DNA of 64,000 nucleotides, from NCBI RefSeq assembly GCF_020382885.2, contig NC_058506.1, positions 8,162,318 to 8,226,317 on the forward strand. Reading direction: 5' to 3'. Source of the DNA: Scatophagus argus (taxonomy: Eukaryota; Chordata; Actinopteri; Scatophagidae). Positions 27,001 through 33,000 of this stretch are shown here, piece after piece (position 1 is the first letter of the stretch; the number at the start of each line of letters is the position of its first letter). The position numbers and the translations under genes are program-made. The notes under the pieces are model-generated. The model was not told where the DNA came from. It saw only the letters and a program-made list of their open reading frames with translations, and ran no database searches.

Positions 27001-30000
27001 CTTTTTCAGTTGTCCAGTTGCTCAGATACTCAGGCAACACTTTTCCCATGTTGCCCTTCTCAGGGAACATCTGAACAACCTCCAGGCCAGACTCATGTGC
27101 TGAAAGAAAAAAAAAAAAGAGGAAAAAAATATTACAGATTAAATCCAAAACAAATGTATTTGGATAAATCTCAGTATTAGCAGTCTTACATCTCCTGCCG
27201 AGGGCACAGGCCAGCTCGCTGCCCAAGAAGCCGCCTCCGATGATTGTAACGGACTGGATATTTCTGGAGACCTTATCCAATGTCTTGAAGTCGTCAATCT
27301 GTGGTGAACAAAATTTATACCAAGAATCCAAAACATTTCCATCATTTCATACCGTTGTTCTTGCTCCTACAGCTTAACTATAACATGTTTTCAGACCAGT
27401 GTACTACATGACAGAATATTCCCAAATTGAAACACAGCTACTGCCCCCCTGTGGCTAAACACTGACCTTGCGGAACAAAGTCGTTCTCTTCATCACTTCC
27501 TCTCCTGCTCTTTCAATGACCTGTAGATTTCTTGGCACTCCACCTGAAGAGAGCAGTTCAAATTAGTTTCCACAAAGTTTAAGAAACATCTGGGGACAAA
27601 TGCATTTTTTAGTGCCTGGCTTACCTGTAGCAATCAAACACTTGTCATATGAAATCTCAGTATCATCATCCAGTTTTACTTTGTTTCCTCTCACATCCAT
27701 GTGAACCACCTAAAATTGGATTAAATCATGTATTTATTGTCAAAAATCTCATTCAGTATAGTCAAAAAACAAGACATCCTAACTTCCAGTATGAATAATT
27801 TATCCAAATGCTATCTTGTATTATATATAATTGTGAAGTCGGCACACTTTAGTGTCTGACTTTTAAGTGAAAACAAATACAAACCAACCTTTTTACTAGT
27901 GAGAACAGCCACTCCTCCATTTTCTGCACTATTCAGTTCTTCAGGTGTAATATAGAATGATGCTGGCTGAAAGTAGATACTGCCAAATAAATACAAAAGG
28001 TATCAAAATCATCATTAATCACAATCACATTTTTCTTATGGTGTATAATGTGGGGGGAAAAATTCTTTGGAACAGTATGGTACATACTGTAAAAAGGGAA
28101 AATTGATAGTCACAGAGTTTAGTTGTTCATATTTCACATAAGCAATGATGAATTTAAAAGAAAAAGCCAGGAACAGAAACTTAAATTCTGCAATGAAAGC
28201 AAACAGTCTAACTGAATCACTGTAATGGCCACACATCCCAGCAGAGAGAGACAGATGTTGAGACAGAACAATCAGACAGATGGACAGGGACCAGAACGAG
28301 ACAAACAGGAAGAACGCAAGGCAATATAGGTGGATAAATCAAAAGCACAATACAGGAGTTTTAAACACACCTTCTTTCCTTTCCATTCCACTGTTTAAAA
28401 CGCAGTGTTTCCGTAACACTGGGGTCATCAGAGAACCACAGTTCTTTAGAAAGTGGTGGTCTCATGTATGGAAGGTCTGGCTCTTCAGTCACTATCAACA
28501 CCTGACAGCAAACAGGTTTAAAAAGGCATTGAAGTAAGCAGCGTCACTTGGCAGACAGAGCAATTAAGGAGAAACTCAGGTACAAGGAGGTGGACAACAA
28601 AGCAATCTCTGACTGACCCTGGCACCTGGGTCTCTGGCTCGAATGGACCGGGCAGCAGCAAAAGACGCCGTACCTCCACCAATAAGGAGGTACGGCGTGT
28701 GTGAGGGGACCTTGCTAGAGGCAGGTGCGGAGTCCTCTCCTGGAGTTTACATGAGCAAGCGACAGCGAGCGTGACAGAGAGAGACAGAGACAGAGACAGA
28801 CAGAGAGAAAGTGAGAGACAGAGAGGCAAAAAGCAAAAGTAGGAGGGAGACAAAGTCAGTTCATAAACTTGGATACTCATCAGCACCCATCACTTACACA
28901 AATACACCTGACAGGAGTACATGGAAAAAGAAATTTAACATTTCATGTGAGATTAACCATTATCATTACAAGAACCCAAACAATGTGAAGCAGAAATGAA
29001 CAGGCAGGGAGAAGAGCTGTAATGAGAAAAAAAATGTTAAAAACATAAAGGGAAGAAGAAGGTGCTGGTGAACTTAGCATTATCAAAACTGAAAGAAGTA
29101 TCGGTGTCGTGTTTTCCCGCTTTCCCGCTCCAAGGCTGGACTATGGTCTTACCACTCGCTGTCACAACTTCAGGCCGAGGCTCAGGCGGCTCTGCTGTGG
29201 GCCTTTCTGCTGCTGCTGCGGGCTCTGTTAGTATAACCGGAGCGTTAACCAGTTAAGATTAAACAAACCCTCGGTGGTAAATGTGCATCACTGGTTCCAT
29301 GCACAGGTCTGACTGAGTGCTTACCACTCTCCACAACGGGTGCAGGGGGCTGCTCTATGAGCTCAGGTGGGGACGGCTCAGAGGGGGGCGATGGCTCTGG
29401 TAGTAAAGTGGTAAAGTTACCTAATACAATCTAATGTGCATCACAGATAATACGTGAAATCCGTCTTGATTTTTTTTGTATCTACTCCACAGACTCAGGT
29501 CATACAGCAAAGTCCGGCACTTCCAACAGAATGAGTAAATTAATTACATCAGACTATCCTTTCCTCTCACAGCTTACCCTCCTCCTCAAATACAGGTGCA
29601 GCAGGTGCCTCTGCTGCTTCCTCTGGAGGTGCATCTACCACTGGCTCATCTGCTGATGAGGGCAATCAGTAGCATGGATTAAGAAGCAATACTTTACAAA
29701 ATTACTGAAGGGGGAGACCATTGGGATCCATGCATCTCTTCAGCTTTACCTTGGGAACATCTTGCAGAGCATGCACACTAACACAGTAACAACTGGAAGC
29801 CGCCTGATTTGTGATGAACTTGTACAGAGACGTGCACACTGTATACGTCATTATACCAGAAAATATGACATTTGTTATTTGAACAAAATATTATTAGGAA
29901 CCCAAATGTGGAGTCGTGATTATCGCCGCTGACAACAGTGTCCAGGCTGATTTTTACTCAAGCGTGTCTTACCACATTAATGTTTATAACAAAGCAGTCC

Positions 30001-33000
30001 TTGGTTAGTACAAAGTTGAAAATAGGCCTTAAACACAGCATGAGAAAAGTCAGGGCAGCTTCCAATTATGAACACTGTAACATTGCAGTCAACAGTAAAA
30101 CAACCTTGTCAAGTACTAACCCAGGACAGTATAACACATTCAATTTCAGTTCCATTTTACACCTCAAACATGACAACAAAGCAGATCAGGAGCCGACACA
30201 TTTGTTGAAAGTAGTGAGAAGTCCAACGAAAACAGAGATAGTTACAGTCCACCATGGAGGTGAGTGTGTGAGTCTCCAAAAGTGTACTGAAACTGTAAAG
30301 GGTTAATTTACACGTTTACAAGGTGAGAGGACACAAAGAAACTGAAACCCAGCAGAAGACAGTGCTGAGTATGACACATGCATCACAAAATACAAGAAAA
30401 ATTAGCCCATGCAACAAAAGACACTGTTCATGCAGTAAACCTCTGGATGTAGACCAGACAACACAGGTCAGGAATATCCAGGGGGCCTCATGTATAAAAC
30501 ATGTCATCACCATGACGATGTATTTTTAACATATCAATGATGTAGGACAACGATGAGCAGGGTACAAAGAGGTGTTTTACACCCTTTTTTTCACTAAACT
30601 AACTTTACTGGTTGGCGGAGCCATTTTCTCTTCAAAGGTTAGCATGAGTATAAAGTGCAATGGGAAACAGAATTCCACACCTCATACTACTTCACTACAT
30701 ATACATGTGGGGGTATAGAGAAGTATGTACACAACCTGTGGGCGTTTCAGTGGTTTCACTGGGGGCTGCAACCTTTGCAACAGGGGCCGGGGGGCTTGGC
30801 TTCTCTGGTTCAGGTGCTGCTTGAGGTTCTGGCGCAGGGACGGCTGGGAGAGAAATGGACAGAATTATTTTTAGCAGCGAAATTATTGACTTCAGACAGA
30901 CATTCAGCATCAGTTCTCAGGTGAAGTTATAAGAAATTCAGATGGTTTACTGATCAGGTAGGAGAACAGAGTTAAATGAAGGTTATTTAAATCAATCCAC
31001 CTCCAACTTAAAAACACTTGTAAAGGCAGTTTGTTTTCCTAAGATCTGCTGTTTACATGGCAGTAAAGAGGAAGCTAATTCACATAATGCAGAGTCAGCA
31101 GATTCCAGGCCCACACTTTCACAAAATCACCTTTAACTATGATTATTTAACTTTGATGTTTGTAGCTCGTGTAGAAGCTCTTCCTTCACTGTTATGAAAA
31201 TATTACAATTAAGTTTTATTACCCATTTAGTTTGACCTATAAAGGTCATCTACATAGAAATGAGAGAGAAATCACTCACTGTCTTAGTTGCTAAAACAAA
31301 TAAAACAATCAAAACAGTGATTTTTTTTAATAGATCATCACTGTATTACACTGGACTGCTGTGGCTCTGATACTGTGGGAAATGTCATTAACACTAAAAT
31401 CAGCTGATAAATATTACTCACCAGGAGGCTCTGATTGGATGACTGTGACTGGTTCTTTTGTGGCAGCTTTATGTGTTCTTGATGCAATTTCATCAATACG
31501 CTCCTGATATCTTTGTTTGTCTGCCTTGAGATGTCGGTATGCCTGTGAAAACAAAACAAAAAGAGTTCAACTGATTCTGCCAAGGCATGAATATCTGCAG
31601 GCTAAGAAGCAGGGCTGTACCGTACGTTATGACAGGCTAGGCTTACTCACATATATTCCAGTACCAGCAATGGCTGCTCCCACCACAGCGATGTACACCA
31701 GGTTTTCTCCACCTACCCCTTTTGGCCCGGTGGACATGTGAGCGCCAGGTACGCGCACTGGTATTGCGACATTACTTAACCCTGAAAACAACATGACACA
31801 TAACACATAACATCTTACTTTGCTACTTGGTTGGGGTAGACTGATTATCGGATTGGCCAGCTATTGGATCCAATATTGTCTTTTTTGGATGATTTGTTTG
31901 TTTCTGTTGTTTATTTGTTTTTTTTTTCCAAATGCAGATAAAATAAATTAATTTTAAAAAATGTGCAATTTTTTACTCTGGAGTAAAAAGTTATAGTGCA
32001 GTAGAAGTATGAAGTTGTAAAATAAATAAAAATCAAATTCTCAAGTATGAATACCTCAAAACTGTACACGTGTCCAGTACTTGAGAAAATGTAGTTAGCT
32101 GCATCCCTACTTATTCTAAATCTTGACGCTAAGAATTTCATTTTTACTGCAAATGTATACTGGTTCAATCTATCTATCTATTATCGGCCTCATTAATTAC
32201 TAATAATATGTGTTGAAGAATTACAGCGTTTAAACACTTTGTGTAAGTGCTCCTGACTATATGTCACATCACATGATCTTCAGTGTAAGTATATTATGCT
32301 GCTATACAGTGTAATATAACATCACTACATGTCAGCATGAACTTTGACTTGACATTCCCCAAATTACACTTTGGTGCACAAGAAATCTGATGCTTGTTAA
32401 TTAGGTTAATTAAAGAAAGCACACACTTAGTTTGAGGAGGGTTTAGAGGCTTGAATCCTCATTATGATCACCCTCTTTCATGCACTAATTTCCTCTAATA
32501 ACTCTCCGCACGCTCTCTTTTCTTTATCGTTGTACCTTCAAGCAACCTATGGCCATGCTGTCCAAAGGACTCTATATGTACCTGTTGTGCTTTAGCCCTT
32601 CATGGTAAGGGGTTAGAACAACCCCGTGACCCAAAAAAGTCGGCCTGGGTAAGAACAGCAAAATCTGACAGATTACAGAACATGAACATGGTGACACCTA
32701 CAAAAACCACACTGCAAACCAGGGCAAACTCGTCAGAACCATGCGTGGCAATCAGTTTTTATTCACTAGCGTTGCTTTCGGGCATGTTGCAGGAAAGAAC
32801 TACAAACAGTCAAGTGCAATATGGTTTAAATTAGCTAGTTATCAACATGTCATCCACTTCAGCTCGTTACTGTTTGCTAATCAGCGTTAGCATTATAACA
32901 GCCAAACGAAGGTCAGAATAGTGAAACTAAGCTACCAAACGTTATCCTCTCTCGCTCAACAACATGTCGAAATTCTTTGATATTATGCTTCCAGACATGC

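Follow-up and report, generated by a model that had tools for sequence, protein, structure and literature searches.

Four in-frame exons of Scatophagus argus aifm1 are predicted to form an acidic spacer between the membrane anchor and the FAD domain of AIF

In this study, we found that the aifm1 gene of Scatophagus argus, whose coding region lies on the minus strand at 24016..33153 of the window (the whole stretch of 64,000 nucleotides that was analyzed), has four additional exons at the position of intron 3 of the mouse gene. We lean towards the belief that these exons, exons 4–7, are genuine coding exons and that they form an acidic entropic spacer; their inclusion in the mRNA is presumed from the gene sequence.

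The splice-aware gene model gave a reading frame of 715 codons over 20 exons, with the terminal stop as the sole stop. Pfam matches to Pyr_redox_2 (residues 240–566, 5.3e-48) and then AIF_C (residues 570–696, 2.8e-60) were found in the product. Among the 23 PDB sequences matched at E<=1e-20, 21 were AIFM1/PDCD8 entries, each with an E value of 1.7e-261 or better over the whole core, and the remaining two carry the names of other FAD-dependent reductases. Among the candidates scored in the genome search, this was the sole copy found of the AIF core, with 13/13 matches within aifm1, and the linker DNA matched once, namely to itself. Exon 2 (31651..31781, minus strand) encodes a hydrophobic segment at residues 57–75, which is like a membrane anchor by hydropathy only and runs into exon 3. 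Exon 3 (31422..31542, minus strand) encodes the end of the anchor, the stalk and the predicted OMA1 site RYQER|IDE at residues 88|89. Exon 8 (28618..28739, minus strand), the counterpart of mouse exon 4, starts the FAD domain. The domain order, the PDB core match, the anchor with the OMA1 site and the exon boundary all agree with what would be expected of an aifm1 orthologue. An unusually strong hairpin was also seen in exon 8, just downstream of the linker modules. The scan of introns 1–2 for an alternative exon like exon 2B passed only exon 2 and two shortened forms of it.

In the gene model, the linker modules 1–4 are exon 4 (30736..30843, 108 nt, 36 residues), exon 5 (29578..29652, 75 nt, 25 residues), exon 6 (29325..29396, 72 nt, 24 residues) and exon 7 (29153..29224, 72 nt, 24 residues), respectively, all on the minus strand and all of phase 1 at both ends. 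The four exons total 327 nt, or 109 codons, every boundary is of phase 1, and at every junction the codon consists of a G from the upstream exon and two bases from the downstream exon. Because of these ends and junction codons, the loss of any module would merely make the spacer shorter. All 16 inclusion or skipping subsets of exons 4–7 were in frame and gave 12 distinct tether lengths, and the joining of exon 1 to any of exons 4–8 was likewise in frame. An earlier note on this DNA had described four consecutive phase-1 Pro/Ala/Glu exons of about 109 residues between the membrane anchor and the FAD domain, any subset of which could be skipped in frame, as an expansion of the short linker of human AIFM1. 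Our results bear this out: the exon ends agreed with ours, the 715-codon frame was intact, 16/16 combinations held the frame, the anchor is in exons 2–3 with the FAD domain from exon 8, and the linker was 160 residues here versus 45 in mouse. Without the four exons, the tether of S. argus would be 51 residues, and their inclusion would thus about triple its length.

Compared with mammalian AIFM1 (PDB 3gd3, 4bur and others), the S. argus protein has the same domains, the same anchor end, the OMA1 Glu-Arg pair and the FAD and C-terminal domains. The exon count of 20 equals the 16 of mouse (exon 16 is named in the available part of PMC8048367) plus four. In the same part of that study, peptides spanning the 3/4 and 1/4 exon junctions of mouse locate the junction at an Ala that precedes the conserved PSH by 12 residues; for the exon 7/8 junction of S. 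argus, the distance to PSH was 11 residues. By this alignment, the four exons sit at the position of mouse intron 3, with an agreement within one residue. The intron between mouse exons 3 and 4 would be of phase 1, as judged from the Ala common to both junction peptides.

The window was scanned for in-frame phase-1 segments of 60–130 nt. The weakest focal site defined the splice thresholds, which means that the focal exons pass by construction. Of 834 minus-strand pairs, 161 were open candidates, as were 172 of 844 plus-strand pairs. Candidates with at least 50% P+A+E numbered eight on the minus strand and zero on the plus strand, and all eight were at the four module loci. After dinucleotide shuffling of the local 2.7 kb, such a P/A/E-rich candidate appeared in 0/200 shuffles. 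When each exon was shuffled separately, shuffles that were both open and equally P/A/E-rich numbered 0, 0, 2 and 0 per 2000 for exons 4, 5, 6 and 7, respectively. By richness alone, whether open or not, exon 6 was equalled in 9/2000 shuffles and exon 7 in 1/2000. The openness of the four exons is weak evidence by itself, with a joint chance of about 0.03 in the shuffles. The other forward frames were closed over the exon set, as frame 0 had a stop in each of exons 5–7, though none in exon 4, and frame 1 had stops in all four.

P+A+E made up 61–75% of each linker exon, and P+E+V+K+A made up 71–88% in 4/4 linker exons versus 19–45% in the other 16 aifm1 exons. With a net charge of -20 across 109 residues, the linker falls beyond the Uversky boundary, in the disordered range; by charge-hydropathy only, it is probably disordered. 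The Pro codons were mixed (CCT 12, CCC 9, CCA 7 and CCG 3). The linker alone matched 0 Pfam families at E<=1. An artefact of simple repeats or poly-Ala was rejected, as 0 of 37 TRF rows fell in the four exons and the poly-Ala frame of the window is at 36597–36709. A repeat search over 28740–31430 returned only short or low-identity families, including a 15-nt family common to exons 5 and 7.

In mouse, the OMA1 cut follows Glu96-Arg97, and the available text of PMC13226697 reports the site as conserved among aligned sequences, with Danio rerio among them. RYNER|V of 3gd3 paired with RYQER|I of S. argus (4.7 bits, i-Evalue 66, 11/22 identical), in order before the main match. On this pairing, the Glu-Arg pair maps to residues 88|89 in exon 3, upstream of the insertion. 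Because of this location, the skipping of exons 4–7 neither deletes nor creates the OMA1 site, and release by OMA1 does not have to depend on how long the tether is. The earlier note had also supposed that the exons could set how easily the flavoprotein is cleaved and released, which as worded does not fit a site in exon 3, outside the skippable block. Control of OMA1 cleavage by the presence or absence of the site was thus rejected as the main role of exons 4–7. The linker might still contain new protease sites, or its length might affect how well proteases reach it. After the OMA1 cut, the released protein is predicted to keep a tail of 145 residues rather than 30.

AIF has its anchor in the inner membrane and is a binding partner of CHCHD4 (PMC11832770, available part). 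We infer a spacer function for the linker, and likewise any regulated skipping of exons 4–7. We propose that exons 4–7 were inserted into the phase-1 intron separating mouse exons 3 and 4, and that a proline-rich, acidic and probably disordered spacer of 109 residues would link the anchor and the OMA1 site to the FAD domain. The spacer would most likely act as a passive entropic tether whose design resembles that of titin PEVK, and by its calculated reach it may add several nanometres to the distance of AIF and the bound CHCHD4 from the inner membrane.

Titin PEVK exons are short exons with a spring or spacer design similar to that of the aifm1 modules. Their mean lengths, given in the available part of PMC6469411 and taken as nt, are 75.76 for PEVK-C and 93.29 for PEVK-N. 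At the PEVK ratio cut-off of 0.54 from the same source, with Ala counted, 4/4 linker exons passed (0.71–0.88) and 0/16 other aifm1 exons did. Unlike titin PEVK, the aifm1 linker is poor in lysine (2/109), rich in Ala and acidic, so it is not lysine-rich in the PEVK sense; its four modules are only weakly alike, AIFM1 is a different, mitochondrial protein, and no descent is implied. OPA1 is likewise an intermembrane-space protein that is anchored in the inner membrane and cleaved by OMA1, and its variable exons 4, 4b and 5b lie between the anchor and the enzyme. However, in the accessible text of PMC6316456, the variable exons of OPA1 carry (5b) or modulate (4b) cleavage, whereas the known OMA1 site of aifm1 is in exon 3, and no OPA1-like location of it inside a variable exon was found. 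The alternative splicing of N-terminal anchor or stalk exons in mouse AIF2 and AIF3 concerns the same gene, but there anchor exons 2/3 are swapped or removed (PMC8048367, available part), whereas the modules here are between anchor and enzyme.

The earlier note suggested that the gene could produce tethers of different lengths. Different tissues or stresses might include different subsets of exons 4–7 and so give AIF tethers of 51–160 residues with differing reach, which we consider possible, if only tentatively. The 16 in-frame subsets with their 12 lengths agree with such tuning, but symmetric phase is expected for any exons in a phase-1 intron and is not proof of skipping. The exon 4 acceptor scored 8.21, the exon 4 donor CAG|GTTGTG scored 0.96, the lowest among 19 aifm1 donors, and the exon 7 acceptor scored -3.33, the lowest among 19 acceptors, so that both minima lie within the block. 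However, the scoring was trained on only 15 sites, and presumably constitutive exons came close to these minima (1.68 for the donor of exon 14 and -2.25 for the acceptor of exon 19). These low scores permit skipping without showing it. Exon 7 may be 63 nt, with its start at 29215 rather than 29224, since its acceptor is poor and is outscored by an in-frame CAG located 9 nt further downstream. The tandem CAGCAG acceptor of exon 5 would allow one Ala more or less. Tuning by splicing is also in line with reports from mouse, in the parts available to us, that the gene is alternatively spliced just upstream (AIF2 exon 2B and AIF3, PMC8048367) and that exon 2 is skipped upon Eftud2 loss (PMC12407278). 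The same two low-scoring sites could instead mean that the four exons are unused and that exon 3 is spliced directly to exon 8 in the real transcript, following the mammalian pattern. Leaving out all four exons gives an in-frame product, and its tether of 51 residues is close to the mouse length of 45. We believe such non-use of the exons to be very improbable, since an idle intron is not expected to retain four open, compositionally matched and spliceable modules, as the 0/200 shuffles indicate.

Neutral low-complexity expansion is another reading, in which the P/A/E exons arose by exonisation, perhaps with one local duplication of exons 6 and 7; we regard it as somewhat doubtful. It would be tolerated because the linker can be of many lengths, and a slack linker could be neutral. 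Exons 6 and 7 are equal in length and identical in register at 38/72 nt, a value reached by 9/5000 codon shuffles and, in the best-offset test, by 10/500. The Ala codons were not mixed (GCA 16/22), so that the linker composition could partly be a DNA-level bias. However, all four exons retain an intact frame, splice sites and composition, and four like-composed modules exceed what one duplication explains. The remaining five exon pairs were without clear similarity, and recent tandem duplication was rejected as the full origin, since in-register likeness was limited to one of six pairs. A further reading concerns the 145-residue tail left after OMA1 cleavage. AIF has a basic DNA-binding surface, and the tail could shield it, interfere with dimerisation, with DNA binding or with export, and so weaken the killing role of AIF. 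The OMA1 site upstream of the insertion and the net charge of -20 in the inserted part speak for this role, which we nevertheless think quite unlikely. A broader picture would make AIF a mitochondrial counterpart of PEVK, a splice-adjustable ruler for the reach of the AIF-CHCHD4 import station, with OMA1 converting the linker into an acidic tail and the exon 8 hairpin perhaps joining the splice choice; this, too, we hold to be unlikely.

Returning to the spacer, the available part of PMC13226697 reports that anchored AIFM1, in contrast to released AIFM1, is associated with complexes of the respiratory chain and is effective in restoring complex I activity, and for this reason the tie of AIF to the inner membrane matters. 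Our literature search aimed at tie length found no study on whether the length of the AIF membrane tie matters. In the literature on fish AIF, isoforms and the linker, the titles and abstract beginnings listed did not describe the insertion, and a mention deeper in a text would escape such a search. AIFM1 is named in fish proteomes without its sequence (PMC6473766 and PMC5288811, available parts). A vertebrate gene with an in-frame tether that can vary module by module would be a natural test of tether length, as single modules are removable while the enzyme and the OMA1 site stay untouched. In studies of fish AIF, the fragments left by cleavage should not be presumed to have the sizes known from mammals.

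Rfam and tRNA searches of the 64-kb window gave 0 and 0 matches, respectively. In viral contigs, a 77-residue AIF piece as query gave 11 stretches that fitted the pattern, with 0 confirmed. In genome contigs, the AIF piece query gave 139 stretches at 9 loci, all with prokaryote titles, which have no bearing on the linker.

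The aifm1 coding region, rebuilt from splice sites and reading frame, runs on the minus strand from 33153 to 24016 and comprises 715 codons in 20 exons with a single terminal stop. Its core matched Pfam AIF_C (2.8e-60) and Pyr_redox_2 (5.3e-48). At E<=1e-20, 21 of the 23 PDB matches to the product were AIFM1/PDCD8 entries (top 5.3e-266), and the remaining two were named as other reductases; by sequence, the gene core is AIFM1. The genome (570.7 Mb, 48 contigs) was searched for further copies. Among the candidates scored, the 13 matches to the protein from exon 8 onward all lay within aifm1 itself, and the sole match to the 2.6-kb linker DNA was itself.

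Between the membrane anchor and the FAD domain lie four small minus-strand exons: exon 4 (30843-30736, 108 nt), exon 5 (29652-29578, 75 nt), exon 6 (29396-29325, 72 nt) and exon 7 (29224-29153, 72 nt), each in phase 1 at both ends. They encode 109 residues, in which Pro, Ala, Glu and Val account for 28%, 20%, 20% and 9%, respectively, with 24 acidic versus 4 basic residues. The earlier note had read four consecutive phase 1/1 exons of about 109 Pro/Ala/Glu-rich residues here, and the ends, phases and residue count were all borne out. Its claim that any subset can be skipped in frame also held, since the frame is intact in 16 of 16 combinations, which give 12 distinct distances from anchor to FAD domain, from 51 to 160 residues. 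Each of exons 3 to 7 has G as its last base, so the downstream exon sets the junction residue and no junction is able to make a stop.

To weigh chance, the sequence was scanned for segments of 60-130 nt that could be spliced in frame in phase 1. Because the splice cut-offs were taken from the weakest site of exons 4-7, these four were bound to pass. Open candidates made up 161 of the 834 minus-strand pairs and 172 of the 844 plus-strand pairs; eight reached P+A+E of at least 50%, all on the minus strand and all at the four exon loci. When the local segment was dinucleotide-shuffled 200 times, no such P/A/E-rich candidate appeared. Each exon was also shuffled on its own, so that its GC-rich composition was retained; of 2000 such shuffles per exon, 0, 0, 2 and 0 were both open and as P/A/E-rich for exons 4, 5, 6 and 7, respectively. 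An open frame on its own counts for little (multiplied together, the four shuffled openness rates come to about 0.03), and the weight of the case lies in composition taken together with splice sites and phase. The Pro codons are mixed (CCT 12, CCC 9, CCA 7, CCG 3), which argues against a young DNA repeat, and TRF reported no tandem array within the four exons. Ala is chiefly GCA (16/22) and Glu chiefly GAG (15/22), a skew that leaves room for a DNA-level bias. We believe that exons 4-7 are very probably real coding exons.

A mouse study gives the exon 3/4 junction peptide as AIASATEGGSVPQIR and the AIF3 exon 1/4 junction peptide as LPATEGGSVPQIR (PMC8048367). The Ala common to both is most simply a split codon, matching the frame here, the mouse phase being deduced. 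AIF3 splices exon 1 to exon 4, and here likewise exon 1 joined to any of exons 4-8 keeps the frame. Since AIASATEGGSVPQIR is present in the PDB AIFM1 chain 3gd3, that chain is the mouse protein. The conserved PSH begins 12 residues past the shared Ala in 3gd3 and 11 past the exon 7/8 split codon here; these near-equal distances mean that the insertion sits, give or take one residue, where mouse has its intron 3. From the conserved second Ala of YAY to PSH there are 45 residues in mouse. Here the count is 51 when the four exons are left out, exon 3 being longer in its own right, and 160 when all are included, so the linker is indeed longer than that of a mammal, as had been proposed. By a rough calculation from generic disordered-chain scaling, the tether contour would be about 58 nm versus 16 nm and the mean end-to-end distance about 11 nm versus 5 nm. 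Among the matches listed for fish AIF, isoform and linker literature, none describes the insertion by title or abstract; curated fish annotations may contain the exons.

According to one report, OMA1 cuts mouse AIFM1 to give the new N terminus Val98, Glu96-Arg97 is conserved across aligned sequences, Danio rerio among them, and respiratory complex subunits co-precipitated efficiently with membrane-anchored but not soluble AIFM1 (PMC13226697). The predicted OMA1 site here is RYQER/I (residues 88/89, exon 3), aligned to mouse RYNER/V. The 22-residue alignment carrying it is weak alone (4.7 bits, i-Evalue 66, identity 11/22) and was accepted for its position in order ahead of the main match. In mammals the calpain region is at about residues 101-103 and would also map to exon 3. 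With both sites upstream of the insertion, inclusion of exons 4-7 neither creates nor removes the OMA1 site, and the suggestion that they set ease of cleavage or release is not supported as far as site presence is concerned. Tether length may affect protease access. The predicted cut product retains 145 residues ahead of PSH, compared with 30 in mouse.

Splice sites were scored with a matrix trained on a small set drawn from the other exons, 15 donors and 15 acceptors. The exon 4 donor CAG/GTTGTG (0.96) was the lowest of 19 donors and the exon 7 acceptor (-3.33) the lowest of 19 acceptors; nearly as low were the exon 14 donor (1.68) and exon 19 acceptor (-2.25), in presumably constitutive exons. 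At the exon 7 acceptor (29206-29231) the pyrimidine tract is poor and TACTAAC, which we take to be a branch-point-like word by consensus, directly abuts the AG. An in-frame CAG 9 nt past it scores 1.42, with four in-frame CAGs at +9 to +18, and the exon 5 acceptor is a CAGCAG tandem. These features would allow, rather than show, skipping and small length changes. In mouse Aifm1, alternative splicing at exons 2 and 3 has been described (PMC8048367, PMC12407278). The best-supported role for the four-exon product is that of an acidic entropic spacer, which we consider somewhat probable; a regulated, variable tether length is possible though less probable.

Titin exons average 75.76 (PEVK-C) and 93.29 (PEVK-N), read here as nt, and the ratio cut-off of PEVK_Finder, in which Ala counts too, is 0.54 (PMC6469411). 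The PEVK(+Ala) ratios of exons 4, 5, 6 and 7 were 0.81, 0.88, 0.71 and 0.79, respectively; none of the gene's remaining 16 exons exceeded 0.45. The four exons are alike in design to titin PEVK, being short with a PEVK-type ratio, but differ by near-absent lysine and a different host protein; the resemblance is design likeness and not membership. OPA1 is the closest mitochondrial parallel (PMC6316456); there the variable exons influence cleavage, whereas in aifm1 the known site lies outside the block. Exons 6 and 7 have the same length and 38 of 72 nt identical in register, reached by 9 of 5000 codon shuffles; with six exon pairs compared, this suggests a single local duplication and no more.

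In the exon 8 coding sequence, 28665-28698 forms a GC-rich perfect 13-bp inverted repeat with an 8-nt loop, using codons uncommon in the aifm1 CDS (CCG 4/61 Pro, GCG 5/76 Ala, ACG 7/39 Thr). No other perfect stem in the window (at least 10 bp, loop 3-30 nt) is GC-rich, the remaining five listed having 0-30% GC, and the exact pattern of this one is present a single time genome-wide. A 13-bp stem arose in 0 of 200000 local synonymous resamplings, and the longest over 150 whole-CDS resamplings was 12 bp, seen once. The RNA fold of exon 8 gave z -2.6, with 4 of 200 shuffles equally stable; the hairpin could influence splicing or translation.

A CAG-type triplet repeat at 36597-36709 (TRF 36625-36676, 17.3 copies) gives a poly-Ala frame on both strands. 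Six of 43 ORFs were scanned against Pfam, and these neighbours gave the following domains: NUFIP2 (6932-8635) and a neurotransmitter-gated channel transmembrane region (16010-16330) on the minus strand, and PH (39467-39769), AMER (48524-51640), UBA_6 (58594-59376) and Regnase_1_C (60594-62060) on the plus strand. Six loci on prokaryote MAG contigs (L001, 10001-10201; L002-L006), titled Bacillota, Thaumarchaeota and Nitrosotalea, carry stretches 48-57% identical to a 77-residue AIF piece from exons 17-18, and these would be either AIF relatives or contamination.
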